In this document: positions 1,040 to 23,579 of the stretch, in pieces | Position numbering within the stretch: position 1 is the stretch's first letter | Layout: each line of letters opens with the position of its first letter | DNA from: Pseudofulvimonas gallinarii | GTDB taxonomy: Bacteria > Pseudomonadota > Gammaproteobacteria > Xanthomonadales > UBA2363 | Reading direction: 5' to 3' | Assembly: GCF_004343305.1 (NCBI RefSeq) | Contig: NZ_SMAF01000007.1 | Span: 62,001 to 126,000, forward strand | DNA length: 64,000 bases | Notes under the pieces: generated by a model | What the model saw: the letters and a program-made list of their open reading frames with translations, nothing else | Told to the model about the DNA's origin: nothing | Database searches by the model: none | Made by a program: the position numbers and the translations under genes

Positions 1040-3853
1040 TTACGGCTCGAAACCGTTGGCGAAGATGGACTCCGACAGGGCGACACCGCCCTGGAAGAGC
1101 ATGGCATTTTCAGTGGCACGCAGGTCGCCCAGCTGGTTGTCGGTCAGGATGACGGTCCAGGTGTTGCCATCCCGCGTGAATGGCAGGTCGCGCCAGGCAT
1201 AGGTATGCGTCGCCTCGGGTGTGAGGGGCGCGAACACGCGGAAGCGCCAGCCGGCACCGAAGCCGGCTCCGTGGTAGTGCAGCCGCAGCCGTGCCTGCGT
1301 GCAGTTGCCCAGGTCCAGGCGCACCAGGCCCAGCGGGTAGTCGTGGCCGGTATCGACCGGGAAGGCGCTGGCCGGCAGGGCGTGGGCATTCTCCAGACGT
1401 GCGCAGGCACCCTGCAGCGGTTCCACTTCGATGGTGATGTAGCGGTCACCGCCGCGGCCGGCCCCATCGCCCGCGTCCAGGAGCGAGGCCACCTGGGCCT
1501 GGACGGTGTCGGGAATGCCATCACCGTTGCCGTCACCGCCTGACGGGGCGCCACTTTCGATGGCGCTGGGGACGCCGTCGGCATCCTCGTCCGGCACCTG
1601 GTCGATGCTGAAGACACCGTGGCGGGTGCCGGCATACAGGCGTGGCACGGCGCCGGAGAGGTCCAGTTCCAGGGCAGAGGCGGCACTGGGTGGCAGGCCG
1701 ATACTGTACGAGGTCCAGGTCTGGCCACCATCGGTGGTGCGATAGACACCGCCGGGATTGGTTTCCGAGCCGGTCGAGCCGGCATAGGCGATATCGGGAT
1801 CGGTGGGGTCGACGATCAGCGCCCGGATGTCCGACTGCGGGGCGATGCCGTTGTTGGCCTCGTACCAGCTGGCACCCGCGTCGTCGCTGCGGAAGATGAC
1901 TGAATCACCCAGGAGGTTGTGGGTGGCGGCGTACAGGCGTGACGGCAGGCTGGGCGCCAGCGCCAGCGCCAGCACGCTGCGCTGGGCGCTGTCGGGATCG
2001 GCCGGATTCATGCGCGGCAGGCCGACACTGCTGTGCAGCCAGTTGGCGCCGCCGTCGGTGCTCTTGAACACGCCGTTGATGACACCGCGCGAAACCAGCG
2101 GATTGGTGTAACCGGGTTCGTAACCGCTGGTGGATGTGCCCACGTACAGCGTCGTTGGCGTCACTGGATCGATCACCAGCGGCACCGCGATCACCGCGTA
2201 GCTTTGATGGGTGACGGTGTCATACAGGGGAATCGGCAGGCCGTTGTCGGACGCTGTCCAGTTGCCGCCGGCGTCGGTGCTCTTGTAGATGCGGGCGGCA
2301 TTCACCGTTGGCACGCCGGTGTTGTAATCGTAGGAAATGCTCCCGCTGCCACTCAGATACAGGGTCTGCAGCGGACCGGTGCCGGCCGGCGCACCGCCGC
2401 TGGAAGGATCGGCCACCACGGTCCGGGCGATGTTGAAATAGCTGCGCTTGTAGCCGGCACTGGTCTGGAACGGAATGCCGTTGTCGATGGTCGACCAGGT
2501 TGCGCCGCCGTCGCTGCTCTTGAACACGCCGGCATTGCCGTCGCGGACGGTGCCGGACATGGAAAACAGCGGTTGCCCGTAACCGGCCGCGTACAGCGTG
2601 GTGCTGAAGGGACTGCTGGTGGTGTTGGGGTCGACAAGGATGGTGCGCAGTCCGCTGGCTTCCAGAGACGGCGAGGCGGAGAACCAGCTGCCGCCGCGGT
2701 CGATGGAGCGGAACAGGCCATCGCTGGGCGTATCGAAGGCGTCGCCATAGCCGGCGAATACCCACAGCGGTTGCGTGGGATGCACCGCTAGGGCGCGGAT
2801 CGCCGCCTGGCGCAGGCCGGTGTTGCGCCGGCTCCAGCTGGTGCCGCCATCGTGGGTGACATAAAAGCCGGTGAAATCGGCCCCGGCATACAAGGTGTTG
2901 ACGTCATCGGGGCGGACGAACAGGGCATTGACGCCGTTGTCGTAGCTGCCACCGGCAACCGGGCGGATGCCCTGCCCGACCACGCTGTAGCTCATACCGC
3001 CGTCGTTGGTGCGCGCCAGGCCAACATTGGTCGCGATCCACCACACACTCGGGTCCGATGGATGCGCTTGGATGCGCCGGATGGCACCGACTTGCGGCAG
3101 ATCCACGGCGGCGAGCAGGCTGAAGCTGGCACCGCCGTCGACGCTGCGGAAAATCGAGCCCTGGGTGCCGACCAGGACCATGCCCGGGGTGCTCGTGAAG
3201 GCGAAGGCGCCGTTGATGTAGTAGCCGGAGCCGGGAAGTCCGGTTGCCGCCGTCCAGGTCGCGCCAGCATCGGTGCTGCGGAACAGCTCCTCCCCGTAGC
3301 TGCCCAGCAGCCGCCCGGGGACATGCGGGTCGGCGACGACGTGCAGGGGCATGCTGGTCAGGCCGGTGGCGGGGAGCTGCGTCCAGGTGTCGCCGTCGTC
3401 CAGACTCTGCCAGAAGCCGGCGCTGCCGCTCGCCCAGACGCGGCCGGGAGTGGTCGGATCGAACGCCAGTTCGGAGAAGCCGCCCGGTACCGGCAGGCCG
3501 CCGGCCAGTGCGGACCAGTTGCTGCCACCGTCGGTGCTGCGGAAGATCTGCCAGAAGTTGGTGACCAGCAGCAGGTCGCCGTCGTGCGGGCTCATGCGCA
3601 GCCGGTTCAGCACCGCCGCATACGGCGCCACATTCAGTGTCGTCCAGGTCAGGCCGGTATCGGTGCTCTTGTGGACAGCGCTCTGCGCGCCGAGGAACAC
3701 GGTCGCCGGCTGTGCCGGATCGACGGCGATCTCGAAAATGGTGCCGCCCTCCGGTCCGCTCGATGTCCACACGCCCGGTCCCGCTTGTGCCGGGACGGCG
3801 AGGACAAGGGCGAGCAGGGAGGGAACGGCGAGCTGCAGGAGATGACGGTACAT
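1040..3853 (-). CDS. Secreted Asp-box (BNR/sialidase-like) repeat protein with C-terminal IFANGFEP
   Basis: A 937-residue exported protein. The start at 3853 is chosen because it begins a clear signal peptide (MYRHLLQLAVPSLLAL, ending near VPAQAG) and has GAGG 8-11 bases upstream; the frame runs further upstream without such features. About thirteen repeats of the type F-x-S-x-D-x-G-x-x-W (for example FKSSDGGATW, YRTTDGGQTW) are Asp-box motifs, pointing to one or two beta-propellers as in VPS10/sortilin or photosystem assembly factor-like proteins. An Asp/Gly-rich calcium-binding-like stretch (DADGV, GDGNGDGIPD) follows, then a C-terminal beta domain resembling the choice-of-anchor U type. 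The last residues, IFANGFEP, match the ends of two other exported proteins in this window. No catalytic residues were recognised and the substrate is unknown. It stands alone, convergent with lpdA. Confidence 0.85.
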   Translation of the reverse strand: MYRHLLQLAVPSLLALVLAVPAQAGPGVWTSSGPEGGTIFEIAVDPAQPATVFLGAQSAVHKSTDTGLTWTTLNVAPYAAVLNRLRMSPHDGDLLLVTNFWQIFRSTDGGSNWSALAGGLPVPGGFSELAFDPTTPGRVWASGSAGFWQSLDDGDTWTQLPATGLTSMPLHVVADPHVPGRLLGSYGEELFRSTDAGATWTAATGLPGSGYYINGAFAFTSTPGMVLVGTQGSIFRSVDGGASFSLLAAVDLPQVGAIRRIQAHPSDPSVWWIATNVGLARTNDGGMSYSVVGQGIRPVAGGSYDNGVNALFVRPDDVNTLYAGADFTGFYVTHDGGTSWSRRNTGLRQAAIRALAVHPTQPLWVFAGYGDAFDTPSDGLFRSIDRGGSWFSASPSLEASGLRTILVDPNTTSSPFSTTLYAAGYGQPLFSMSGTVRDGNAGVFKSSDGGATWSTIDNGIPFQTSAGYKRSYFNIARTVVADPSSGGAPAGTGPLQTLYLSGSGSISYDYNTGVPTVNAARIYKSTDAGGNWTASDNGLPIPLYDTVTHQSYAVIAVPLVIDPVTPTTLYVGTSTSGYEPGYTNPLVSRGVINGVFKSTDGGANWLHSSVGLPRMNPADPDSAQRSVLALALAPSLPSRLYAATHNLLGDSVIFRSDDAGASWYEANNGIAPQSDIRALIVDPTDPDIAYAGSTGSETNPGGVYRTTDGGQTWTSYSIGLPPSAASALELDLSGAVPRLYAGTRHGVFSIDQVPDEDADGVPSAIESGAPSGGDGNGDGIPDTVQAQVASLLDAGDGAGRGGDRYITIEVEPLQGACARLENAHALPASAFPVDTGHDYPLGLVRLDLGNCTQARLRLHYHGAGFGAGWRFRVFAPLTPEATHTYAWRDLPFTRDGNTWTVILTDNQLGDLRATENAMLFQGGVALSESIFANGFEP

Positions 3854-4799: not shown

Positions 4800-5977
4800 C
4801 GCGGCTGCAGCTGGTAGCGCAGGTCGGCGTCGAAGCCGTGCAGGCGCGCGGCGTCAAGCCGGCGCGACAGCGCCATGACCTGGAAGCGCTCACCCATTTC
4901 CCCGGGCAGCATCAATGTCTTCACGGCGCCGACGCGGTTCAGCCGGGTCGCGAAGGGCAAGGCATCCAGCGACGCCAGATAGCCCTGGATGTCGTTGCCG
5001 AGCAGGAACTGCGCCTGCGAGGTGTAACCTGCGACATCGAGGCCGCAGGCCAGCGCGGCTTCCGCCACCGCGGTGAAATCGACAAAGGCGGTGATGTCCT
5101 GCAGGCCCGGCAGGTGCAGCGGATCGCCGTGGGCGTGATGGCGGTAGTGGCAGACCAGCGTGCCGTCCAGGCGCTCCGGGCTGTAGTACACCGGCCGCGG
5201 ATAGCCGTAGTCGACGAACAGCGCCAGCCCTTGCTGCAGCGAACCGGTCAGGGCGGCCAGCCAGGGCTGGAGGCTCAAGTGGATTTCCGAGCGGTAGGGG
5301 CGCGGCAGCGCGTCCAGGTCATCGCCCAGCCGCTTCCGGATCTGCGCCGCCAGGGCGGGCGACGCCGGCTGTTCCAGCCATTCGAACCGCTCGGGCCCGC
5401 CGCCGACGAACTGTTCGTACAGGCCGTCGTCGCGCAGCGCGAAGCGCGTCGCCGGCAGTGCGTCGATGACTTCGTTGGCGACCACGGCGCCGCGCCAGGG
5501 CGACCGCGGCGGCTGGTCCAGCCAGTCGACGCGGTCCAGCCACTGCGGACAGCGCGCGGCGATCCGCCCGCGCTGCCGTTCGCGCAGGTCGGCACTGATT
5601 TCCAGCAGCCGGTAGCGCCGTGGCAATGCGTCGCGTGCGGCGAGTGCCTGCAGCAGGTCCGCCGCCAGTGCCCCGCTGCCGCCGCCGGCTTCGAGCAGGT
5701 CCCAGTCGCCGTCGCCGGCCATCGCGCTGGCCAGGCAATGGGCGAGACCGTGTGCGAACGCCGGGCCCAGCTCGGGCGCTGTCACGAAGTCGCCCTCGGC
5801 GCCGAACTTGCGGCTGCCGGCGCTGTAGTAGCCCAGGCCGGGCGCGTACAGCAGCAACTCCATGAAGCGCGAAAACGGCACCGGGCCACGCGCGGCGATC
5901 TCGGCCGCGACGTGGCCGGCCAGGCGCCGGGAATGCGCGAGAGCCTCAGCGGAGGGTTCGGGAAGACGGGCGGACAT
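4796..5977 (-). CDS. MidA/NDUFAF7-family SAM-dependent methyltransferase
   Basis: 393 residues from the ATG at 5977. The longer frame to 6025 overlaps the divergent gene and lacks family similarity. The N-terminus reads PVPFSRFMELLLYAPGLGYY, typical of the DUF185/MidA family, followed by a glycine-rich SAM site EAGGGSGALAADLL near residue 100. NDUFAF7, the mitochondrial relative, methylates an arginine of a complex I subunit; the bacterial substrate is not established. It is first in a two-gene unit with the phosphopantetheinyl transferase and divergent from an SDR gene across a 38-bp gap that must contain both promoters. Confidence 0.85.
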   Translation of the reverse strand: MSARLPEPSAEALAHSRRLAGHVAAEIAARGPVPFSRFMELLLYAPGLGYYSAGSRKFGAEGDFVTAPELGPAFAHGLAHCLASAMAGDGDWDLLEAGGGSGALAADLLQALAARDALPRRYRLLEISADLRERQRGRIAARCPQWLDRVDWLDQPPRSPWRGAVVANEVIDALPATRFALRDDGLYEQFVGGGPERFEWLEQPASPALAAQIRKRLGDDLDALPRPYRSEIHLSLQPWLAALTGSLQQGLALFVDYGYPRPVYYSPERLDGTLVCHYRHHAHGDPLHLPGLQDITAFVDFTAVAEAALACGLDVAGYTSQAQFLLGNDIQGYLASLDALPFATRLNRVGAVKTLMLPGEMGERFQVMALSRRLDAARLHGFDADLRYQLQPR

Positions 5978-6015
5978 GGTCGACGGCGGTGGTTCGGACC
6001 GGTAGCGTAGCGGAC

Positions 6016-6771
6016 ATGCCCCCATCCCGGTCCCCCGACAACCGCCCGGTCGCCCTCGTTACCGGCGCCGCGCGCCGCATCGGCGCGACCATCGCCCGGA
6101 CGCTGCACGGCGCCGGCTACGACCTCGTCCTGCACTGCCATGCCTCGCTGCATGAGGGGCAGGCGCTGTGCGATGAACTGCTGGCGGCGCGCGCGGACAG
6201 CGCCATCGTGGCCAGTGCCGATCTCGCCGACGACACGGCGCCGACGCGGCTGGTCGAGGCGGCGGTTGATCGCTTCGGTCGCCTCGACGCGCTGGTCAAC
6301 AACGCCAGCCGGTTCCGGCCGACGCCGCTGGGCACGATCACCGCCGCGGACTGGGACGAGCTGTTCGCCAGCAATGCCCGCGCACCGCTGTTCCTGGCCC
6401 AGGCGGCGGCGCCGCTGCTGCGCGACCGGGGCGGCGCCATCGTCAACCTGGTCGACATCTACGCCGAGCGTCCGCTGCCCGACCATCCCGTCTACGTGAT
6501 GGCGAAGGCCGCCCTGTCGGCGCTGACGCTGGCGCTGGCCCGCGACCTCGGACCGGCGGTGCGGGTGAATGCCATCGCACCGGGCGCCATCCTCTGGCCC
6601 GAGCAGCCGCCGCCCGACTACGGCAAGGAGCGGCTGCTGGAATCCACGGCGCTGAAGCGGACCGGCACGCCGGCGGACATCGCCGGCGCGGTCCTCTACC
6701 TGCTGCGCGATGCCACCTACGTCACCGGCGAGATCCTGCGCGTGGACGGAGGACGCTGGCTGTCGATCTGA
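6016..6771 (+). CDS. Pteridine reductase-like short-chain dehydrogenase
   Basis: 251 residues from the ATG at 6016 (an upstream GTG at 5989 is in frame but less likely). The nucleotide site is TGAARRIG; the arginine pair after the first Gly-Ala is typical of pteridine reductases such as FolM and PTR1, which reduce dihydrofolate, dihydromonapterin or biopterin with NADPH. NNAS and the catalytic YVMAK follow. The residue that is serine in most SDRs appears to be aspartate (NLVDIYAERPLP), as in PTR1. The end (TGEILRVDGGRWLSI) is normal for SDRs. It is divergent from the MidA-like gene and just upstream of the peptide transporter. Exact substrate is inferred. Confidence 0.82.
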   Translation: MPPSRSPDNRPVALVTGAARRIGATIARTLHGAGYDLVLHCHASLHEGQALCDELLAARADSAIVASADLADDTAPTRLVEAAVDRFGRLDALVNNASRFRPTPLGTITAADWDELFASNARAPLFLAQAAAPLLRDRGGAIVNLVDIYAERPLPDHPVYVMAKAALSALTLALARDLGPAVRVNAIAPGAILWPEQPPPDYGKERLLESTALKRTGTPADIAGAVLYLLRDATYVTGEILRVDGGRWLSI

Positions 6772-6847: not shown

Positions 6848-8461
6848 ATGGCACAGGCAGAAAGCGGGCGCATGCCCCGGCAGATCGGCTACATCATCGG
6901 CAACGAGGCGTGCGAGCGCTTCAGTTTCTACGGCATGCGCAACATCCTGGTGCCGTTCCTGATCAGTTCGGTGCTGCTGCAGTACCTGCCGGAAGCCGAA
7001 CGCGCCGGCATGGCCAAGGACGTCTTCCACAAGTTCGTCATCGGCGTCTACTTCTTCCCGCTGCTGGGCGGCTGGCTGTCCGACCGCTTCTTCGGCAAGT
7101 ACAACACCGTCCTCTGGTTCTCGCTGATCTACTGCGCCGGCCATGCCTGCCTGGCGCTGTTCGAGGACAACATCAACGGCTTCTACACCGGCCTGTTGCT
7201 GATCGCCCTCGGCTCGGGCGGCATCAAGCCGCTTGTGGTGTCGTTCTGCGGCGACCAGTTCGACCAGACCAACAAGGACAAGGCGAAGCTCGTTTTCGAC
7301 GCCTTCTACTGGATCATCAACTTCGGTTCGTTCTTCGCCTCGCTGTTCGCGCCGTTGCTGCTGCGCCATTTCGGGCCGGCGGTGGCCTTCGGCGTGCCCG
7401 GCGTGCTGATGTTCATCGCCACGCTGATCTTCTGGATGGGCCGGCACCGGTACGTGAACGTGCCGCCTTCGGGCCCGAATCCGCATTCGTTCCTCAACGT
7501 GGTGAAGACGGCGCTGCGCGAGCGCCGCGACGGCGAAGGCAACCTCGGCAGCATCCTGGCCTGGTCCGGCATCGCGCTCGCCGCCGCCATGCTGCTGTCC
7601 TGGGCGCTGTCGGTGCAGGGCTGGGCGGGGTTCTGGCCGCAGTCCCTGGATTTCGTCATCACCTTCTGCCTGGCGCTGGGCGTGCTGATCGCCTTCGGCG
7701 GCTGGGGCGCCTCGCTGCAGCTGGAGCGCGCCCGCGGCCTGCACCCGGATGCCGCGGTCGATGGCGTGCGCGCCGTGCTGCGCATCCTGATCGTGTTCGC
7801 CCTGGTGACGCCGTTCTGGTCGCTGTTCGACCAGAAGGCCTCGACCTGGATCATCCAGGGCAACGCCATGGTGATCCCGCATGACCAGTGGTGGTGGCCG
7901 AGCTGGCTCATCAAGGAACCGGCGCAGATGCAGGCGCTGAACCCGCTGCTGGTCATGCTGCTGATCCCGTTCAACAACCTGGTCCTGTATCCCGGCCTCA
8001 GGCGCATGGGCGTCACCGTCACACCGCTGCGGCGCATGGGCTGGGGCATCGCCTTCTCCGGCGTGTCCTGGATCATCGCCGGCGCGCTGCAGCTGTGGAT
8101 CGACAGCGGCGCGCAGGTGTCGCTGGCCTGGCAGTCGCTGCCCTACCTGCTGCTGACCTTTGGCGAGGTGCTGGTTTCGGCGACAGCGCTGGAGTTCGCC
8201 TACAGCCAGGCACCGCACGCGATGAAGGGCGTGATCATGGCGTTCTGGTACCTGACCAGCACCTTCGGCAGCCTGTGGGTGCTCATCACCAATGCCGGCG
8301 TTCGCAACCCCCGCTTCGAGTCGGTCATCGCCAGCAGCGGCCTGAGCGAGCCGGCGTTCCTGATGTTCTTCTTCGCCGGCTTCGCCTTCCTGGCGGCCGT
8401 GGCCTTCGGCCTCTACGCCCGCCGCTACCCGATGCAGGACAACTACCGCATCGCCACCTGA
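6848..8461 (+). CDS. POT/PTR-family proton-dependent oligopeptide transporter
   Basis: 537 residues from ATG 6848, with GGGAG just upstream. It belongs to the major facilitator superfamily; POT members import di- and tripeptides with protons. The signature EACERFSFYGMRN corresponds to the ExxERFxYYG motif of helix 1, and GGWLSDRFFGKYNTV is the helix 2-3 loop motif. Around 12-14 hydrophobic segments are visible, including paired extra helices in the middle. The gene fits with the window's several secreted peptidases (DPP-IV-like, tricorn-like, DUF885), which would supply small peptides; that link is inference. Confidence 0.9.
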   Translation: MAQAESGRMPRQIGYIIGNEACERFSFYGMRNILVPFLISSVLLQYLPEAERAGMAKDVFHKFVIGVYFFPLLGGWLSDRFFGKYNTVLWFSLIYCAGHACLALFEDNINGFYTGLLLIALGSGGIKPLVVSFCGDQFDQTNKDKAKLVFDAFYWIINFGSFFASLFAPLLLRHFGPAVAFGVPGVLMFIATLIFWMGRHRYVNVPPSGPNPHSFLNVVKTALRERRDGEGNLGSILAWSGIALAAAMLLSWALSVQGWAGFWPQSLDFVITFCLALGVLIAFGGWGASLQLERARGLHPDAAVDGVRAVLRILIVFALVTPFWSLFDQKASTWIIQGNAMVIPHDQWWWPSWLIKEPAQMQALNPLLVMLLIPFNNLVLYPGLRRMGVTVTPLRRMGWGIAFSGVSWIIAGALQLWIDSGAQVSLAWQSLPYLLLTFGEVLVSATALEFAYSQAPHAMKGVIMAFWYLTSTFGSLWVLITNAGVRNPRFESVIASSGLSEPAFLMFFFAGFAFLAAVAFGLYARRYPMQDNYRIAT

Positions 8462-8552: not shown

Positions 8553-9566
8553 ATGGAAGCACCTAGCGCCGTCAATCCGCATCGAATCGCCGCCTGGGTG
8601 CTGGCCGGTATCGCCCTGGTCGTCGTGCTCCGCTTCGGCCTGCTGGTACCGCTGCTGGCCGGCCTGCTGGTCTTCCACCTGACGCATTCGCTGGCGCCGT
8701 TCATCGAGCGCCGCATCACGCCGCAGGGCCCTCGCCTGATCGCGGTCACGGTGGTGTCGATGCTCATCATCGGCCTTCTGACCCTCGGGATCGTCGCCCT
8801 GGTCGCCTACTTCCGCAGCGATGCCGGATCGCTGCAGGCGCTGCTCGACCGCCTGATGGCGATCATCGACGACTCGCGCGGCCAGATTCCCGACTCGCTG
8901 CTGGCGTATCTGCCCGAAGACAGCTCGGACATGCGCCGCGCGCTGGGCGAATGGCTGGCCAACCACCGGACCGAGCTGAGTCTGGTCGGCGCCGAAGCGG
9001 TGCAGACCATCGTCCGCCTGCTGATCGGCATGGTGCTGGGTGCGATGATCGCGCTCTACGACGAGCTGCCCAGCCAGTACCTGGGCCAGCTCGGCCGCGA
9101 GATGGTCGGCCGCACCAGCCGCTTCGCCGACGCCTTCCGCCGCATCGTGTTCGCACAGCTTAAGATCTCGCTGCTCAACACCTTCTTCACCGGCATCTTC
9201 CTGGCGGTGGTGCTGCCGGCTTTCGGGGTCCACCTGCCGCTGACCAAGACGCTGATCGTCATCACCTTCGTCGCCGGCCTGCTGCCGGTGGTCGGCAACC
9301 TGATCTCGAACACGGTGATCACCATCGTCGGCCTGTCGGTGTCGTTCTACGTCGCCGTCGCGGCGCTGGCCTACCTGATCCTGATCCACAAGGTCGAGTA
9401 CTTCCTCAACGCGCGCATCGTCGGCGGCGAGATCCATGCCCGTGCCTGGGAGCTGCTGCTGGCGATGCTGACGATGGAAGCCATCTTCGGCATTCCCGGC
9501 CTGGTTGCCGCACCGGTGTACTACGCCTACATCAAGCGCGAGCTGACCGACCAGGGCTGGATCTGA
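8553..9566 (+). CDS. AI-2E family transporter (PerM/YhhT-like membrane protein)
   Basis: 337 residues with the family layout: two N-terminal transmembrane helices (AAWVLAGIALVVVLRF and LIAVTVVSMLIIGLLTLG), a soluble middle segment, and a cluster of C-terminal helices containing LPVVGNLISNTVITIVGL and the conserved tail EAIFGIPGLVAAPVYYAYIK. Members are variously linked to autoinducer-2 export, Na+/H+ antiport or permease roles, so the substrate here is open. Its stop lies only 22 bases before the first Wadjet gene, so the two could share a transcript. Confidence 0.85.
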   Translation: MEAPSAVNPHRIAAWVLAGIALVVVLRFGLLVPLLAGLLVFHLTHSLAPFIERRITPQGPRLIAVTVVSMLIIGLLTLGIVALVAYFRSDAGSLQALLDRLMAIIDDSRGQIPDSLLAYLPEDSSDMRRALGEWLANHRTELSLVGAEAVQTIVRLLIGMVLGAMIALYDELPSQYLGQLGREMVGRTSRFADAFRRIVFAQLKISLLNTFFTGIFLAVVLPAFGVHLPLTKTLIVITFVAGLLPVVGNLISNTVITIVGLSVSFYVAVAALAYLILIHKVEYFLNARIVGGEIHARAWELLLAMLTMEAIFGIPGLVAAPVYYAYIKRELTDQGWI

Positions 9567-9588
9567 CCGTCACCCTGCCGCCCCGTTG

Positions 9589-11034
9589 ATGGCCAACCCG
9601 CAGCAACCGGCCCTGTTCTCGATCGTCCCCGGCGGCCTGTTCGGCCCGCTGGCGTCGCCCAACCGCGCGCATTACTGGCTGCTGCTGTGCCGGCTGTTCG
9701 ACGAGTTTTTCGGGCCGGACGCGCCGCTGCCGCCGAGCACCGGCCTGCCCCGGCGCGAAATCACCGCGGCGCTGGAGCGCTACCTGCTCGCCGATGATCC
9801 CTGGGAAGCCGAGGACGGCGATGCGCCGGACACGCCGATCGCGGTACGCGCCGGCCACATCTACGAGCGTTTCCGCAACGCCGGCTGGTTGCGCCAGGAG
9901 CGCATCGGCGCGCGCGAGATGGTCAGCATGGCGCCACTGGTGGCGCAGCTGCTGTCGACGCTGATCGAATTCGCCGAGCACGGGCCGACCTTCGTCTCGG
10001 CGCGCATGCGCTCGGTGGAACTGCAGCTGCAGCAGGTCGTCGAGGGCCGCGCCAGCGGTGACGCGCTCGACGAGGCCGCCGACCAGGCGCGTCGGCTGCT
10101 GGTGTCGCTGTCGTCGATGAGTCTGACCGTGCGCGACCTGATGCCGCAGCTCACGCGTGCCGAAACCACGGCGCAGTTCGCGCGGCAGTGGTTCGAGCGT
10201 TATGTCGGCGAGTTCTTCATCGGCGACTACGCCGACCTGCATCGCGCCGACCATCCGCTCGCGCGGCGCAGCGCGATCCTCGCCATGACCCGGCAGATCG
10301 AGAGCGGCGAGCGCCGCGCAGCGCTGCTCGCCTGGTACGGCGAGCACCACGGCGATGCCGGGCGCGGCGAACAGCGTTTCGCCCGCAGCCTGCGCCGGCT
10401 GCGCGAACTGGAACGCATCGACGACTACCTTGAGCGCCTCGACGACGACATCCGCCAGGCCAATCGCCGTGCGCTCGCCTTCCTCGACTACCGACTGCGC
10501 GCGCCGGCGCGGCTGGACACCCTGCTGCGACGTGCCGCCCGCGGCGCGCTGGCGGCGGCACCCGGCGACTTGCGCCTGCCTGTCGCCAGTGGCGGCCTGA
10601 TGGATGGCGAGCGCCTGCGCGCGCCGCGCACGCGCCCGGCGGCGATTCCACGCAGCGCCAACGCGACCACGCCGCCGACGCCGGAACAGCTGGCGAGGCT
10701 CGCCCTGTTGCGCCGGATGAAGCGCGCGCGCCTGGTCACCGCCGAGGACATGGCCGGCTATGTCGGCCGCCACCTCGCCGACGGTGCGCAGGTCGATTCC
10801 GATGCGCTGTCGATCCGCAGCATTCCCGACCTTCGCGCCTACCAGACCCTGCTGACGCTGGCCCTGCGCGGTCGCCGCGTCGGCGGCCTGCGCCGCGACG
10901 ACCCCCTCGGCCGCCTGCTGCGCGGCTTCCGTGTCGAACTGCTGGATGACGACGCGCGCAGCGACGGCCCATGGCTGCGCGGACCGCGCTTCGTCATCCG
11001 CCGCGTCGCCACACAGACCCGGACACCCGCATGA
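9589..11034 (+). CDS. jetA: Wadjet system kleisin-like subunit JetA
   Basis: 481 residues from ATG 9589; a TTG directly before it is in frame. The N-terminus LFSIVPGGLFGPLASPNR matches the conserved start of JetA proteins, and the rest is helical and charged, as expected for a kleisin bridging the SMC-like heads. In Wadjet, JetA, JetB and JetC form a condensin-like complex that extrudes DNA loops and JetD cuts small closed circular plasmids. No clear Shine-Dalgarno sequence precedes it, and it sits 22 bases after the AI-2E gene. The stop overlaps jetB by ATGA. Identification rests on the N-terminal motif plus the intact four-gene order. Confidence 0.88.
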   Translation: MANPQQPALFSIVPGGLFGPLASPNRAHYWLLLCRLFDEFFGPDAPLPPSTGLPRREITAALERYLLADDPWEAEDGDAPDTPIAVRAGHIYERFRNAGWLRQERIGAREMVSMAPLVAQLLSTLIEFAEHGPTFVSARMRSVELQLQQVVEGRASGDALDEAADQARRLLVSLSSMSLTVRDLMPQLTRAETTAQFARQWFERYVGEFFIGDYADLHRADHPLARRSAILAMTRQIESGERRAALLAWYGEHHGDAGRGEQRFARSLRRLRELERIDDYLERLDDDIRQANRRALAFLDYRLRAPARLDTLLRRAARGALAAAPGDLRLPVASGGLMDGERLRAPRTRPAAIPRSANATTPPTPEQLARLALLRRMKRARLVTAEDMAGYVGRHLADGAQVDSDALSIRSIPDLRAYQTLLTLALRGRRVGGLRRDDPLGRLLRGFRVELLDDDARSDGPWLRGPRFVIRRVATQTRTPA

Positions 11035-11675
11035 AACGAAGCTGGAACACGCTGAGCCAGCAGTCCAACGGCGCCTGGTCCGCGCAGGATTTCGAACGCG
11101 CCGCCTATAGACTGGTCACCGAACAGGTGCTGTCCGCAGGTGACCGCGGCACGCGCCTGGCCTATCACCTGGTCGAAGAGCACTTCGAGGACTTCGTCGC
11201 CGCGCTGGCGCCCCTGGGCGTGCGCCTGGAACGCAATGCGCACTACCGCTACGTCGTTGCCTTGCCGACGCACGGCGAAGGCGCGCCGGTGTCGCTGGCG
11301 GAGACGCTGCTGCTGCTGGTGCTGCGCCAGCGCTACGACGTCGCCATGCGCGAAGGCCTGATCGAGGACGACGGCCTGGTTACAGTCGAGCTGCCAGACC
11401 TGCAGGAAGCCTACCCGCAACTGACGGGACGGCCGATGCCCGACGTCGGCCTGCTGCGCGAACTGGCGCGCACGCTGCGGCGCTGGGGCGTGTGCCGCCT
11501 GGTCGAGGTCGACGGCGACGATCCGCAGCCGTTCCACCTGCAGGTGCGTCCGGCCATCGTCGAAATCATCGGCGAACAGTGGCTGCAGCGACTCGACCAG
11601 CACTACCGCGGCGGCGACGAGGACGACGCGCCCGACACCGCGGCCTTCGCAGGGGATGACGATGCAAAGGCTTGA
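11031..11675 (+). CDS. jetB: Wadjet system kite-like subunit JetB (DUF4194)
   Basis: 214 residues from the ATG at 11031, which overlaps the jetA stop (ATGA). The sequence contains AAYRLVTEQVLSAGD, PVSLAETLLLLVLRQRYD and a winged-helix-like stretch, fitting DUF4194 proteins that act like MukE/kite subunits binding the JetA kleisin. The C-terminal dozen residues are strongly acidic. The stop lies inside the start region of jetC (20-base overlap), so expression is probably coupled through all four genes. Confidence 0.87.
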   Translation: MKRSWNTLSQQSNGAWSAQDFERAAYRLVTEQVLSAGDRGTRLAYHLVEEHFEDFVAALAPLGVRLERNAHYRYVVALPTHGEGAPVSLAETLLLLVLRQRYDVAMREGLIEDDGLVTVELPDLQEAYPQLTGRPMPDVGLLRELARTLRRWGVCRLVEVDGDDPQPFHLQVRPAIVEIIGEQWLQRLDQHYRGGDEDDAPDTAAFAGDDDAKA

Positions 11676-14600
11676 GCGCGTCCACCTGGTGCAGTTCTTC
11701 CTGTTCGAGGCGCAGACGCTCGAACTCGACCGCACCTCCGCCGTGATCGCGCCCAACGGCGCCGGCAAGAGCGCGCTGCTTGACGCTCTGCAGATCGTGT
11801 TGCTGGGCGGCGACCGCAGCCGCATCCGCTTCAACGCACAGGCCGGCGGCAGCGCGCGGGCGCGCAGCATCCGCGACTACTGCCTGGGCGTGTACCGCAG
11901 CGGCGACGACGGCCGCAAGCGTCGCACCGCGACGACGTACATCTCGCTGGTGTTCCGCGACGAGGACAGCGGCCTGCCGCTGACGGCCGGCATCGCGCTG
12001 GCCGCGTCGGCGGACGAACCCGAACACCGTGTGCATGGCCTGTACCTGTTGCCGGGCGTGGCGCTGGAGCTGGACGACCACCTCGAACAGGTCGACGGCC
12101 GCACGCTGCCGCTGGCCTGGGCGACGTTCCGCGAACAGGCATCGCGCCGCTGCAAGGCGGCCGGTGGAACGCTGGAGCTGCACAGCGTGGCCGAGCGTTT
12201 CGTGAAGGACCTGCTGTTCCGCCTGCGCGCCACGGCGACCGCGAATCCCGACGTCAACGCCTACCGCAAGGCCTTCCTCAACGCGCTGAACCTGCAGCGC
12301 GTCGATGATGTCGACCTGTTCGTGCGTGACCTGGTCGCCGAGAACCGGCCCACCGACATCGCACGCTTCCGCTCGCTGCTGGAAAGTTTCCGGCAGATCC
12401 GCGACCGCATCGAGCAGGTGCGCCAGCGCATCGAGGCGGCCGAAGGCGCCGAGAAGCAGTACGAACGCATCGCCAGCCAGGCGGTGCGCGCGGCGTCGTA
12501 CCGCGCCCTCGCCGCCGAATACGCGCGCGACCTTTACGGCGAACAGATCGAAACCGCCGAGGCCGATGTCGAGGCCGCGCGCGAAGCGCTGTCACGCACG
12601 CGCCGCGAACTGGCCGAAGCGCGCAGCGAACGCGAGCGCCTGCGCGACGAACTCGAGCGCGGCAATGCGCAGTTGGCCGGCCACGGCGGTTATGGCGAGC
12701 AGGCACGGTTCGAGGAAGTGGCCGCCCGCGATCGCGAGCGCCTGGCGCAGATCCGGGGCTTGCTGCTGCGCGAGATCGCGGCGATCGCGGATCGCCTGGG
12801 TTCGCTGCCGGCCGTCGACGGCGTCGATGCGGCCATGCTGGCCGAGGCACGTCGCCCCTGGGCGCAGTGGTATGCGGCGCTTGGAGGCGACGGCGGCGAG
12901 GAACATCTGCCGTGGTCACCGGAAGACTTCTTCGACGCGGCGCGCACCGCGCTGCAGGCGGCACGGCCGCTGGTCGAGCAGCTCGAGTCCTTCGGGCGCC
13001 GCCTTCACGCCGAACTGGAACAGTCGCGCGCACGTGCGCAGGCGGCGCGGTCGAACCACGGCCGGCTCGCCGCCGGGCAGGCGGAACTGGCGCCGGATGT
13101 CGTCCGCCTGATGAACTACCTGCGTGACGAAGGTATCGACGCGCGCCCGGTCTGCGATCTCGTGCGCGTGCGCGATCCCGCCTGGCAGCGCGCCATCGAG
13201 GCCTACCTGCGCAGCAATGTCGAAGCGCTGCTGATTCCCGTCGAGCAGGAGGAAAAGGCGACGCGGCTGTACCGCGGCCTGCGCGACGGCCGCGCCGTCT
13301 ATGGCGTCAAGCTGGCACTGTCGAGCCACGCCCGCGCCGGCCGGCGCGACGAGCCCGCGTCGGGCACGGTCGCCGCATTGCTCGAGGGTCTCAACGACGA
13401 TGCGCTGGCCTTCCTGCGCCGGCAACTCGGCGACCTGCGCTGCGTCGACGGTGATGCCGAACTGCTGCGCACGCGCCAGGGCCTGAGCGCCGACGGCGTG
13501 CTCGCCAAGGGCGGCAGCATCGAACGCCTGCGCCTGCCGGCCGTCGGCGAACTGAAGATCGGCGCCGCCGACAATCGCGACCGCCTGCGCGTGCTGCGCC
13601 AGGACATGGATCGTGCCGAGGCCGATGTCCGCCGCCTTGAACCGCTGGTGCGCGCACTGGACGGCCATCATCGCGGCCTGTCGCGGCTGGCGCAGGGCGA
13701 CGAGCTGGCGCAGGCGCTGCATGCGCGCGTGCTGGAACACCACGATGTCGCGCAGCGCCTGCGCAGCAGCCGTGACACGGCCGCCGCATCGGCGGATCCG
13801 GACCTGCTGCGGCTGGCGGAAAAGGTGCGCGAACTGCGCGGCGAACGTGACGCCGCCGAACAGCGCGTCGAGGCGCTGGTCGGTCGCGAGGCAGTGGCCG
13901 ACGGCCGCCTCGCCAGGCTGGTCGAGATGCTCGAAGCGCTGCGCGCGCAGGAAGAGCTGATCGCGCGCAAGGCGGTGCAGGCCTTCGCCGATCCCGACGT
14001 CGATCCGAATCGCGTCGAGCGCCAGCGCGAGGACATGGACGACCGCTTCGCGACGCTGGAAGAACGCCGCCAGCAGTGTGAAGCGCGTGCCGGTGAATCC
14101 GACCGGCGGCTGGCGCACATGCTGCCCGAAGCCTGGAGCGTGCTGTCTCAGTACGCGCGCGACCATGGCCTCGACCTGGAGCTGGAGACACACGACTGGC
14201 GCCGCGCGCGTACGCTGCTGCAGCGCGAACTGGCGCAGCTGCGCGATACCGACCTGGTGCGCTACCAGGCCGATGCCGACCGCGCCTACGACACCGCCGT
14301 CGAGACCTTCCGCGCCAGCGTGGCCGCCACGCTCAACGACAACTTCGTCCGCCTCAAGGGCCAGATCGCCACGCTCAACCGCACGCTGCGCGCCAGCCCG
14401 GCGTTCTCGAACAACGAGCGCTACCAGTTCCACTACGAAGTGGTGCCGGAATTCCGCGATCTCGAACGCTTCATCCGCCGTGCCGCCGACGTCGGCAGCG
14501 AGGACAACCTGTTCGGCAGTGCCGGCGAGGTGCCGGCCGCGTTCCGCGAATTGATCGAGGACAATATCGCAGCGCGTTCAACCACTTCGCCACTTGACGA

Positions 14601-15084
14601 CTACCGGCGCTTTTTCCGCTTCGAGGTGCAGATCCGCCAGGACGACGAGGTGATCGGCACGCTCAGCGAACGCATGCGCTCCGGTTCCGGTGGCGAGCAT
14701 CGCGCGCCACTCTATGTGATTGCCGGCGCCGCACTGGCGGCCGCCTACGGCAAGAGCGAGGCGCAACCCGGCGGCATGGGCCTGATCCTGCTCGACGAGT
14801 TCGGCGACAAGATCGACGCCCAGAACGCGCGCGCGACCACCAACTACCTGCGTTCGCTGGGCCTGCAGCTCCTGCTGGCGGCGCCGGACACCGCCCAGGG
14901 CACGCTCAGTGGCGTGCTCGACAGCTACATCGAGCTGTTCCGCGATGGCGACCTGCTTCAGGTCGAACGCATCGAGGTCAAGGAGGCGGCGCGAGAGCTG
15001 CTGCTGTCCGACCAGTTCGACCTGCATCCCGGACTGCTGGTCGAGGAAACCGCGCGCATCGAACGCGAGCTGGGCTTGCAATGA
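11656..15084 (+). CDS. jetC: Wadjet system SMC-like ATPase JetC
   Basis: 1142 residues. The P-loop APNGAGKSALLDALQ is at residues 32-46. A long charged coiled-coil follows (for example TRRELAEARSERERLRDELE), with a central non-coil region near 500-640 as hinge, then a second coil. The ABC signature SGSGGE is at 1009-1014 and Walker B LILLDEFGD at about 1043-1051, with Asp1047 and Glu1048. All ATPase motifs look intact. Established Wadjet work shows ATP-driven DNA loop extrusion by this subunit. A second ATG lies six bases into the gene (11662). The stop overlaps jetD by ATGA. Confidence 0.92.
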   Translation: MTMQRLERVHLVQFFLFEAQTLELDRTSAVIAPNGAGKSALLDALQIVLLGGDRSRIRFNAQAGGSARARSIRDYCLGVYRSGDDGRKRRTATTYISLVFRDEDSGLPLTAGIALAASADEPEHRVHGLYLLPGVALELDDHLEQVDGRTLPLAWATFREQASRRCKAAGGTLELHSVAERFVKDLLFRLRATATANPDVNAYRKAFLNALNLQRVDDVDLFVRDLVAENRPTDIARFRSLLESFRQIRDRIEQVRQRIEAAEGAEKQYERIASQAVRAASYRALAAEYARDLYGEQIETAEADVEAAREALSRTRRELAEARSERERLRDELERGNAQLAGHGGYGEQARFEEVAARDRERLAQIRGLLLREIAAIADRLGSLPAVDGVDAAMLAEARRPWAQWYAALGGDGGEEHLPWSPEDFFDAARTALQAARPLVEQLESFGRRLHAELEQSRARAQAARSNHGRLAAGQAELAPDVVRLMNYLRDEGIDARPVCDLVRVRDPAWQRAIEAYLRSNVEALLIPVEQEEKATRLYRGLRDGRAVYGVKLALSSHARAGRRDEPASGTVAALLEGLNDDALAFLRRQLGDLRCVDGDAELLRTRQGLSADGVLAKGGSIERLRLPAVGELKIGAADNRDRLRVLRQDMDRAEADVRRLEPLVRALDGHHRGLSRLAQGDELAQALHARVLEHHDVAQRLRSSRDTAAASADPDLLRLAEKVRELRGERDAAEQRVEALVGREAVADGRLARLVEMLEALRAQEELIARKAVQAFADPDVDPNRVERQREDMDDRFATLEERRQQCEARAGESDRRLAHMLPEAWSVLSQYARDHGLDLELETHDWRRARTLLQRELAQLRDTDLVRYQADADRAYDTAVETFRASVAATLNDNFVRLKGQIATLNRTLRASPAFSNNERYQFHYEVVPEFRDLERFIRRAADVGSEDNLFGSAGEVPAAFRELIEDNIAARSTTSPLDDYRRFFRFEVQIRQDDEVIGTLSERMRSGSGGEHRAPLYVIAGAALAAAYGKSEAQPGGMGLILLDEFGDKIDAQNARATTNYLRSLGLQLLLAAPDTAQGTLSGVLDSYIELFRDGDLLQVERIEVKEAARELLLSDQFDLHPGLLVEETARIERELGLQ

Positions 15085-16298
15085 GTGGGCCGCAGGCGCC
15101 GGAGGACTCACCGGCATTGCGCTTCCTTGGGCGGCTGCTGGCGCGCGTCGACTCGGCCGCAGTCCGTGACGGCAGCATCGTGGTCAGTGTTCCTATGTCG
15201 ACGGCCAGCGCGCCGGAATACCACGCAGCGCGCACCTGGACGGAGCGCGAGGAATTCCACGCGGTGATTGCACTGGCCGAGCGCGCCGGTGCGGTAACCG
15301 TGCGCAGCGAGCGTCACCGGGACGATCCCGGACTAGTGCGGGTGACCGTTGCCGATACGCAGGCGCTGGCTGCGTTTCTGGGCAGGAAGACGCTGCGCCA
15401 GCAGGTGGAAGCCGCCAGGACGACGCTCGCCGGTGCAGCGCGCCGGTTCCCCGTCATTGAAGCGGTGCTTTCACGGTGGGCGAAGGGAAAGACCGTGCGA
15501 GGCAGGCGCTCCGAGGCGGCGGTCGATCTTGCAGATGCTGCGCGGGTGGTTGATGCAGGACTTCGCGAAGGCGGGCCGGAACGCCTCCTGCGGCGCGAGA
15601 GCATCCGCCTGTTCGGCGACAGCAAACGTGTAGAGGCGTTGACGCCGTGGCTGGAAGTCCTGCTGACGGGCGAACTGGCTGCCACCGGCCTCGATGATGC
15701 CCAGATCTGGTCGGCATTGGGCTTGCGTAAACAACCGCAGCCGTTGCTCCTGGCAGGCGGGGCAAGACTGCAACTGGTTGACGGACTTCACGTCGACCTT
15801 GTTCGCCCCTACCTGGGCATCGCGCCCGAATCACTGTGTGCCATCGACACGGCGGCACGGTACCTGATCAGCGTCGAAAACCTTGCCAGCTTCCATGACC
15901 TGGCGCGGGGCGCCGAGGAGCGCAGCGTCGTCATCGCCTACACCGGCGGAATGCCCTCGCCTGTGTGGCGGGAGGCCTACCGGCGTCTGCTCGAGGGCCT
16001 GCCTGACGACGCCCGGGTGCTGCATTGGGGTGACATCGATGAGGGCGGCTTCCGCATAGCGGCCGTGCTTGCCCAGACAGCGACAACAGTCGGAAGGACA
16101 CTCGAGCCGTGGCTGATGTCGCCCGCGGATCTCCCGGAGACGGTGCGCGCGGGTGCTTCAGTACCTTCAACCGCCACCCGGAACGCCATGCAACATTGGG
16201 CGCGTCGCGCCGGATGGGAAGAGCTCGCGGCAACGTTGATCGAACAGTGTGTCGTATGCGAGCAGGAAGCCTTGCCGGCAATCTTTCCGGGAGAATGA
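15081..16298 (+). CDS. jetD: Wadjet system nuclease JetD (DUF3322 + DUF2220, Toprim-like)
   Basis: 405 residues with an N-terminal DUF3322-like region and a C-terminal DUF2220 Toprim-like fold. The likely metal-binding residues are visible: Glu266 in LISVENLASFHDL, YTGGMPS near 290, and Asp318/Asp320 in HWGDIDEGGFRIA. JetD is the topoVI-like subunit that cleaves the plasmid after loop extrusion. It overlaps jetC by ATGA and is the last gene of the operon. Base composition in the middle of the gene looks less GC-rich than its neighbours, which fits an acquired defence locus; this is a visual impression, not a calculation. Confidence 0.92.
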   Translation: MSGPQAPEDSPALRFLGRLLARVDSAAVRDGSIVVSVPMSTASAPEYHAARTWTEREEFHAVIALAERAGAVTVRSERHRDDPGLVRVTVADTQALAAFLGRKTLRQQVEAARTTLAGAARRFPVIEAVLSRWAKGKTVRGRRSEAAVDLADAARVVDAGLREGGPERLLRRESIRLFGDSKRVEALTPWLEVLLTGELAATGLDDAQIWSALGLRKQPQPLLLAGGARLQLVDGLHVDLVRPYLGIAPESLCAIDTAARYLISVENLASFHDLARGAEERSVVIAYTGGMPSPVWREAYRRLLEGLPDDARVLHWGDIDEGGFRIAAVLAQTATTVGRTLEPWLMSPADLPETVRAGASVPSTATRNAMQHWARRAGWEELAATLIEQCVVCEQEALPAIFPGE

Positions 16299-21348: not shown

Positions 21349-23100
21349 TCAGAGGATCGGCACCATCGGTGCGCCGAAAGCGGCCACCAGGCGCGCCCGG
21401 ATGCGCGCCAGGACATTTTCGACGCCGGGGAAATCACCGACGTCTTCATGGCAGCGGTAGAAATCCGGATGCTCGCGTGCCAGTGGCGGACAGCCCTCCA
21501 CCGGCTGGAAGCTGCTCGCATAGCGGAATGGCCACAGGTCGAACACCGGCAGCGCCGAGGAAATGTTCTCCAGCGTGCGGCTGAGCCAGTAAACCGGCAT
21601 CGGGCCGCGTTCGCGCGGGGCGATGATCCAGCTGTTCGCCGGCTCCATGTCACGTTCGATCAGCTGCGCCAGTTCGGCGGCGAAGCCGGTGTCCTCGATG
21701 ATCACCGCCGCTTCGGTGTTGAAACGGTCGGAACGCGGGTCGAAGTTGTGCGTGCCGACCAGGGCGATGCGGCGGTCGACGACGGCGCTCTTGCCGTGCA
21801 GGCTGACGCGGGGCGGCTGTCCCGGGTCTTCGGCCTCGATGATCCGCGGCCAGTGCGCCGGGTCCGGGCGCATCTCGTAGATCTGGAAGCCGAGCTCGCG
21901 CAGGTAGCGCTTCTTGTATTTGTAGGACAGCGCGTACACCGGATAGGCGTCGGTGGCCGCCAGGCTGTTCGTCGACACGCGCACGCGCATGTCCGGATGG
22001 TCGAGCTGGTGCTGCCGGAACAGCTCCCGCGAAGTGCGATCCAGCACCAGGTAGGGCGTCTGCAGCAGGACTTCCTTCTGCGCACCCGTGAACAGCTCGC
22101 GGATGGCGAGGCTGGCGGCATTGGCTTCCGGACGGCGCGAACCGATCTTGGAAGGCAGGTCGGCGACGAAACGCAGCTTTTCGACCGTGCGCATTGGCGC
22201 GATGAAGCGGGCCTGCACCAGCTCCACGTCGTTGGCATCGGCAACGAGTCCGCGCAGCCGCGCGGCGACCGGCGATGCCGGATCGGGCAGGTGGGCCAGC
22301 GCGCCGTCGCCTTCGTCGCCGCGCAGCAGGGTGCGGCCTACGTCGGCCAGGTGCGCGACACGCGACGCGTGGCGATGCCGCCAGAAGCGTTCGAAGGAAC
22401 CCAGCATGTCGGCGGTGGCCGGCCCGAGCACCAGGACTTCGCGATCGTAGTAGGCGAAGTCCGCTTTGAGGTCGTAGTAGCTGTCGCGGTAATTGCGGCC
22501 GCCGATGATCGCCAGCCGGCCGTCGATGGCGAACAGCTTGTTGTGCATGCGCTGGTTGAAGCGGCGGAAACAGCACAGTCCGCTGGCCAGGTATTCCCAG
22601 GCCTGCGTTCGTGCTTCGCGGAACGTCGGATTGAAATAGCGTAGCTGGAAGTTGGGATGCGCCAGCGCCAGCTGTGCCAGGCGGTCGACCTGGTTGAACG
22701 AGAAGAGCTGGTCAACGAGCACGCGCACGCGCACGCCGCGGCGCGCCGCCGCCAGCAGTTCGCCGATCAGCACTTCGGAGCTGGCGTCGTCCTGGAAGAT
22801 GAAGGTCTGGACGTCGATGCTTTCGCGCGCGGCGCGGACCAGGTGCAGGCGCAGGCGCAGCGCGTCGGCGCCGCGGTTGAGGATGAGCACGCGGTGCCTG
22901 CCGTCGTCGGCGTCCATCAGCGCATGGAAGGGCGACGGCATCGCCTGGCAGTGCTGGCCATCGCCACAGTCGCGGCTCTGCGCGTGGGCTTCGCTCACAC
23001 GGGCATCGACCTGGGCCCGCCTGGCGGGACCCAGGGCACAGCCGGCAAGCACGATGAGCATCGACGCCGCCAGCAGGAGGCGTCGCACGGGCACGTCCAC
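21349..23100 (-). CDS. Phospholipase D family lipoprotein (ClsC-like)
   Basis: About 583 residues if GTG 23100 is used; GTG 23094 and 23088 are alternatives, and none has a strong Shine-Dalgarno sequence. The N-terminus VRRLLLAASMLIVLAGCALG is a lipoprotein signal with a lipobox Cys. Two intact HKD motifs are visible, HNKLFAID followed by GGRNYRD, and HGKSAVVD followed by GTHNFDPRSD. This two-HKD layout with a long C-terminus matches cardiolipin synthase C/YmdC-type proteins, which condense phosphatidylglycerol with another phospholipid. A lipoprotein anchor would place it at the periplasmic face, which differs from E. coli ClsC; substrate is inferred. It begins 5 bases after the sixA stop. 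Confidence 0.85.
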   Translation of the reverse strand: MDVPVRRLLLAASMLIVLAGCALGPARRAQVDARVSEAHAQSRDCGDGQHCQAMPSPFHALMDADDGRHRVLILNRGADALRLRLHLVRAARESIDVQTFIFQDDASSEVLIGELLAAARRGVRVRVLVDQLFSFNQVDRLAQLALAHPNFQLRYFNPTFREARTQAWEYLASGLCCFRRFNQRMHNKLFAIDGRLAIIGGRNYRDSYYDLKADFAYYDREVLVLGPATADMLGSFERFWRHRHASRVAHLADVGRTLLRGDEGDGALAHLPDPASPVAARLRGLVADANDVELVQARFIAPMRTVEKLRFVADLPSKIGSRRPEANAASLAIRELFTGAQKEVLLQTPYLVLDRTSRELFRQHQLDHPDMRVRVSTNSLAATDAYPVYALSYKYKKRYLRELGFQIYEMRPDPAHWPRIIEAEDPGQPPRVSLHGKSAVVDRRIALVGTHNFDPRSDRFNTEAAVIIEDTGFAAELAQLIERDMEPANSWIIAPRERGPMPVYWLSRTLENISSALPVFDLWPFRYASSFQPVEGCPPLAREHPDFYRCHEDVGDFPGVENVLARIRARLVAAFGAPMVPIL

Positions 23101-23105
23101 GAAAC

Positions 23106-23579
23106 TCAGGGCGCCCAGTGGTCGAGCAGGCGGCCGCTGCCGCGCAAGGGGCGCGCCGGGCGGTCCGGGATGGTGAGGCGGGCGTGGGCGCAGGTCATCA
23201 TGGCCGGTGCGCGTGGACCGGTCAGGTAGACCAGCAGGTCCTGCAGTCCGGGATTGTGCCCAATCAGGACGGCGTGGCCGGCAAGCTGCTGGACCTCCGC
23301 GATCAGGTCGAGCAGCGTCTCCAGGTCGGCTTCGTACAGCCGCGGCTCGTCGACGGCGCGGCTGGTGAAGTCGTAGCCAAGGGCGCCGAGGGTCGCCCGC
23401 GTCCGCGCGGCCGGCGAACACCAGACGCGGTCCGGAAAGGTGCCGCGATCGCGCAGCCGCTCGCCCAGGATCAGCACCTGGCGCTGCCCCAGCGGCGAAA
23501 GTTCGCGTTCGATGTCGCTGCCACCCGGATCCTTGTTCCGGGCGTCGGCGTGTCGGATGAGCTCGAGCTGTAGGGCCAT
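23106..23579 (-). CDS. sixA: Histidine phosphatase family protein, SixA-like
   Basis: 157 residues. It has the RHG-type motif as LIRHADARN at residues 7-15, SPLGQRQ, the second arginine in VWCSPAARTRATL, and the second histidine in LIGHNPGLQDL. SixA removes phosphate from histidine of phosphorelay or PTSNtr proteins. The size and the ELSPLGQRQ context fit SixA rather than phosphoglycerate mutase. It is probably cotranscribed with the downstream phospholipase D-like gene. Confidence 0.85.
   Translation of the reverse strand: MALQLELIRHADARNKDPGGSDIERELSPLGQRQVLILGERLRDRGTFPDRVWCSPAARTRATLGALGYDFTSRAVDEPRLYEADLETLLDLIAEVQQLAGHAVLIGHNPGLQDLLVYLTGPRAPAMMTCAHARLTIPDRPARPLRGSGRLLDHWAP

Follow-up and report, generated by a model that had tools for sequence, protein, structure and literature searches.

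An intact type I Wadjet operon of the PF18982-JetA branch in Pseudofulvimonas gallinarii, and the absence of JetD from part of its related loci

Does the cluster of four overlapping genes found in the window (the whole 64-kb stretch of DNA analysed here) defend its host against plasmids, does it mainly organise the chromosome, or is it a relic? We hold with high confidence that it is an intact chromosomal Wadjet, of PADLOC type I and of the branch with a PF18982 JetA, that would defend its host against small and medium plasmids by a mechanism known from other type I systems.

Organization of the operon and identity of its subunits

The genes jetA, jetB, jetC and jetD lie in this order and in the same orientation at 9589-16298, and the reading of the ORFs gave no internal stop (Table 1). 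JetA matches PF18982 with 158.8 bits (E 2e-46, Pfam cut-off 26.2) and the PADLOC model JetA1 (PDLC00456) with 749.6 bits, and is 61-77% identical to the aligned relatives. An in-frame TTG is present at 9586, one codon upstream of the start at 9589. JetB matches DUF4194 (71.7 bits, E 8e-20, Pfam cut-off 32.7) and JetB1 (301.9 bits), and JetC matches JetC1 with 1545.8 bits together with SbcC_Walker_B (1e-17) and AAA_29 (2e-9) from Pfam. For JetD, the scores are 53.8 bits with JetD_C (E 2e-14, Pfam cut-off 22) and 453.2 bits with JetD1. PADLOC assigns all four subunits to type I (models PDLC00456/00498/00513/00529), and since the best models score between 300 and 1546 bits, a chance match is excluded. 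An initial annotation of this DNA had proposed a complete Wadjet jetABCD operon, to be doubted if JetA or JetB scored poorly against their profiles. Both score far above threshold, and the proposal is upheld by Pfam, PADLOC, the conservation of residues and the resemblance of the JetD fold to JetD/MksG nucleases of known structure.

Gene order and overlaps are conserved among the relatives. Both ATGA overlaps described, between A and B and between C and D, are present, while the 20 bases given for the B/C junction hold only if JetC starts at 11656 and shrink to 14 bases with a start at 11662. In the JetC alignment the invariant first methionine of the relatives falls on residue 3, so the probable start is 11662; the overlap usual in relatives is 14 bases.

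Table 1. Coordinates of the jet genes and their catalytic motifs in the window, and related loci with a full JetC and no JetD homologue after it
Feature	Position	Strand	Remarks
JetA, kleisin-like subunit	9589..11034	+	481 aa; Pfam PF18982, PADLOC JetA1
JetB, KITE/MukE-like subunit	11031..11675	+	214 aa; DUF4194, PADLOC JetB1
JetC, SMC-like ATPase	11656..15084	+	1142 aa; with probable start 11662, 1140 aa; PADLOC JetC1
JetC Walker A, APNGAGKS, residues 32-39	11749..11772	+	conserved in full-length relatives with and without JetD
JetC ABC signature, SGSGGE, residues 1009-1014	14680..14697	+	invariant
JetC Walker B, LILLDE, residues 1043-1048	14782..14799	+	LDE invariant
JetD, Toprim nuclease	15081..16298	+	405 aa; JetD_C, PADLOC JetD1
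JetD E266, Toprim metal-binding glutamate (SVEN)	15876..15878	+	invariant in 29 JetD
JetD D318-I-D320, Toprim DxD (WGDIDEGG)	16032..16040	+	D318 and D320 invariant in 29 JetD
JetD E394-Q-E396, proposed alternative nucleophile pair	16260..16268	+	invariant in 29 JetD
JetD-less related loci			L004, L006, L019, L025-L028, L032, L033, L035, L038, L044, L047, L049, L051, L052

Catalytic residues and predicted fold of JetD

No catalytic motif is broken, and the motifs hardly vary among some 47 relatives. Those reported earlier for JetC (Walker A, signature and Walker B) are all present, and Walker A, the signature and the LDE of Walker B are conserved in all full-length relatives. The Toprim-like acidic residues ascribed to JetD were likewise found, as E266 and D318/D320, and the pair E394-Q-E396 can be added to them. 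By motif, E266 matches E236 and D318 matches D279 of MksG from C. glutamicum, where replacing these two residues by alanine drastically impaired the nuclease (PMC10123090). The spacing of E394 and E396 is that of MksG E349 and E351, which have been proposed as alternative nucleophiles (PMC10123090).

Searching by sequence gave no meaningful solved relative for any of the four Jet proteins. JetD has none even by profile, which places this branch far from the characterised ones. A Foldseek search with the AlphaFold (AF2) model of JetD (pLDDT 94.3, pTM 0.86, 29 alignment rows) ranked MksG (8b7f, E 3.6e-11) and the JetD of P. aeruginosa (7til, E 1.4e-7) highest, ahead of Topo VI-A and Spo11. With VIA-align the model gave Z 13.8 over 312 residues with 8b7f (rmsd 9.2), Z 12.9 over 322 residues with 7til (rmsd 8.8) and Z 14.0-16.4 with Topo VI-A; the large rmsd would fit a movable two-domain arrangement. 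DUF3322, named at first as a domain of JetD, stays below its Pfam cut-off (18.4 bits against 22) and is matched by 2 of the 29 relatives at E 0.01. The alignment of the modelled fold to 8b7f and 7til over its whole length suggests a related N-terminal domain. The AlphaFold model of JetA was poor (pLDDT 60, 12 alignment rows) and was left out of the conclusions.

The operon shares with the type I Wadjet of PADLOC the gene order, the four subunits, high full-length scores and the catalytic motifs, and differs from it in a JetA of the PF18982 branch (formerly DUF5716) and in a JetD whose N-terminal domain lies under the DUF3322 cut-off. Its JetD resembles that of C. glutamicum MksBEFG (PMC10123090; 8b7f) in fold and metal-binding motif, whereas the two nucleases have no sequence match, even by profile, and C. 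glutamicum lacks a PF18982 JetA.

Distribution in the order and loss of JetD

PF18982 JetA was detected in 43 and JetD_C in 77 of 397 genomes of the order, presumably the Lysobacterales, since contig coordinates in this draw are identical to those of named loci such as L004 (Pseudoxanthomonas mexicana). The operon is present in one of the three genomes of the genus and JetA is missing from both genus mates; presence is variable inside the genus. The initial annotation had allowed for a housekeeping role in case all relatives carried the same genes at this site, and the distribution found is a different one. Some nine tenths of the order lack JetA, which makes a housekeeping role unlikely, and we rejected it as the main reading. 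The patchy distribution points instead to an accessory defence rather than a housekeeping condensin.

A first alternative holds that JetABC in the window serves chiefly to organise the chromosome, as a condensin like MksBEF, with JetD as a dispensable add-on that in some species alone turns it into a defence against plasmids. Its support comes from the relatives. A JetD homologue is missing after JetC in 16 of the 46 related loci with a full JetC (Table 1). In the order-wide draw of 43 JetA genomes, which is a less biased sample than the 46 loci, JetD lies 5-6 kb from JetA in 29 and no adjacent JetD is present in 14. PF09983 matches nowhere in the genome in 13 of these 14, and an intact JetD was not detected in them. 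Re-searching with a 29-row JetD profile recovered the full JetD in each of the four controls, but from the JetD-less genomes only fragments or one weak distant match elsewhere (E 1.5e-6, X. massiliensis). This profile does not cover other kinds of JetD and missed a strong hit to PF09983 that lies on a different contig of the genome carrying L052. Both searches speak against an overlooked divergent JetD in the JetD-less relatives.

Remnants of the gene are visible at one collinear locus in Pseudoxanthomonas. JetD is present in two loci (L003 and L005), only about the first 107 and the last 31 of its residues remain in a third (L072, genome G200), and residues 1-37 together with a short 3' end are left in Pseudoxanthomonas mexicana (L004). 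Judged from these sequences, JetD in Pseudoxanthomonas is deleted in place and stepwise, with JetABC intact. Collinear excision of JetD was also seen in L006 compared with L009 and in L035 compared with L048. On a quick JetC tree the presence and absence of JetD need 13 changes and are clustered no more than shuffled labels, and in view of the remnants at least some of these changes are losses.

JetABC is intact and retains its ATPase motifs and reading frames in the JetD-less loci, with one exception. In Xanthomonas massiliensis (L026, 6896-8827), JetA is apparently frameshifted near its C-terminus, and homology ends at 7990 within a 643-aa ORF. One JetD-less clade shows dN/dS values of 0.14-0.45 for JetABC versus 0.18-0.29 for a neighbouring gene, which we read as purifying selection on JetABC. 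The dN of JetD exceeds that of JetA-C in all three pairs with JetD on both sides.

Most strains of S. maltophilia carry a Wadjet I without JetD, which its authors consider probably inactive (PMC11680222). Such systems and MksBEF consist of JetABC with no nuclease, an arrangement shared by roughly a third of the relatives found here, and a review proposes that MksBEF of P. aeruginosa arose by the loss of JetD (PMC10586767). The verdict of inactivity counts against a condensin role for JetABC, but purifying selection on the remaining genes does not fit simple inactivity and suggests a nuclease-free use. Since JetABC is retained after the loss of JetD, the defence function cannot always be the target of selection.

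For the window itself, we consider a mainly condensin-like role improbable. In contrast to the JetD-less Wadjet I and MksBEF, its JetD is intact and retains every catalytic residue, and JetA, found in 43 of 397 genomes, lacks the spread of a housekeeping MksBEF. A tentative reading, to which we give somewhat more weight, is that the JetABC core of this Wadjet branch in the Lysobacterales has a selected function independent of JetD, that the fast-evolving JetD has been lost repeatedly to leave an MksBEF-like condensin (or a plasmid silencer), and that the operon in the window would be the armed form of a machine with dual use.

While Wadjet without JetD in S. maltophilia (PMC11680222) and the origin of MksBEF by JetD loss (PMC10586767) had been described or proposed before, the present analysis adds the order-wide frequency of JetD absence, the stepwise deletion series and the purifying selection on the JetABC that is left. 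Relatives with and without JetD at one locus offer natural species pairs for the proposal that condensins of the MksBEF type descend from a Wadjet that lost its nuclease.

Proposed mechanism of plasmid defence

The operon is a well-supported ordinary member of a known defence family. Since no solved relative of this branch was found by sequence, we take its mechanism from work on distantly related type I systems (PMC10586767, PMC12287153, PMC10123090) and infer from them loop extrusion, collision-triggered cutting and the restriction of plasmids. JetABC would assemble into a dimeric SMC complex and use ATP to extrude loops of DNA. On small circular DNA both motors would exhaust the DNA and collide, and the collided state would admit JetD, which would then cleave the two strands. 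The large chromosome would be spared, as would linear DNA, and the host would be protected from small and medium plasmids. By this analogy the operon is likely active and would restrict small circular plasmids, and the predicted resistance of the host to small plasmids is relevant to anyone transforming it. JetABC may in addition serve some purpose without JetD, as relatives keep it once the nuclease is gone.

Genomic setting and acquisition

Upstream of the operon are genes for an SDR and a POT transporter (PTR2) and a gene at 8553-9566 that had been called AI-2E. This name found no backing, as the gene has no Pfam or NCBIfam match at E up to 1; a search of 40 other genomes gave homologues in 8. 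Downstream lies a convergent DUF423 gene and then a glyoxalase-like gene. No tRNA is present within the 64-kb window, and repeat searches of each flank separately gave no direct repeats resembling the ends of an element.

Both genus mates keep the SDR and AI-2E-like genes, lack the jet genes and have different genes after the AI-2E-like gene. Genes of the DUF423 side sit on separate contigs there or, in G002, at a distance of about 41 kb. Because the downstream gene order differs, these two genomes show no clean empty site. For the acquisition by recombination that had been suggested, the patchy distribution fits and a clean empty site was not found in the genus mates.

It is very improbable that the operon is silent or decayed as a relic of past transfer, given that its four frames, junctions and catalytic residues are all intact and that the one observation in favour, a consensus scan that found no sigma-70-like promoter, is weak evidence at 70% G+C.

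A PADLOC scan of ten larger ORFs of the window gave, in one protein only, cross-matches of the DrmC/PLD type and a weak one to MkoB. DISARM at 21349-23421 was rejected, the DrmC match being taken as a cross-match through the PLD domain. The earlier remark that no other defence genes are in view is valid for the scanned ORFs; the genome does carry another defence system on a different contig.

A second Wadjet in the same genome

This is a second complete Wadjet, on the minus strand of contig C20 (L065, 6713-13466), whose JetA belongs to the DUF3375 type (E 3e-153) and which further comprises JetB, JetC and a JetD that contains both DUF3322 and JetD_C and has the motifs ITEN, WGDID and LEQE. It has four genes in the same order as the operon in the window, but only the ATPase ends of JetC and the short WGDID motif of JetD align between the two, and the JetA proteins do not. 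Its neighbours include ParA (2335-3216), HipA (5444-6691) and AbiEi (13563-14174), which suggests that it may lie on an integrated mobile element. Also adjoining it is a gene for a FadH-like NADH:flavin oxidoreductase/pyridine nucleotide-disulphide oxidoreductase (14481-15947 of L065). A similar-looking gene directly follows JetABC(D) in Pseudoxanthomonas (from 5906 in L004 and from 12514 in L044), and the side of this gene is perhaps a favoured place of insertion.
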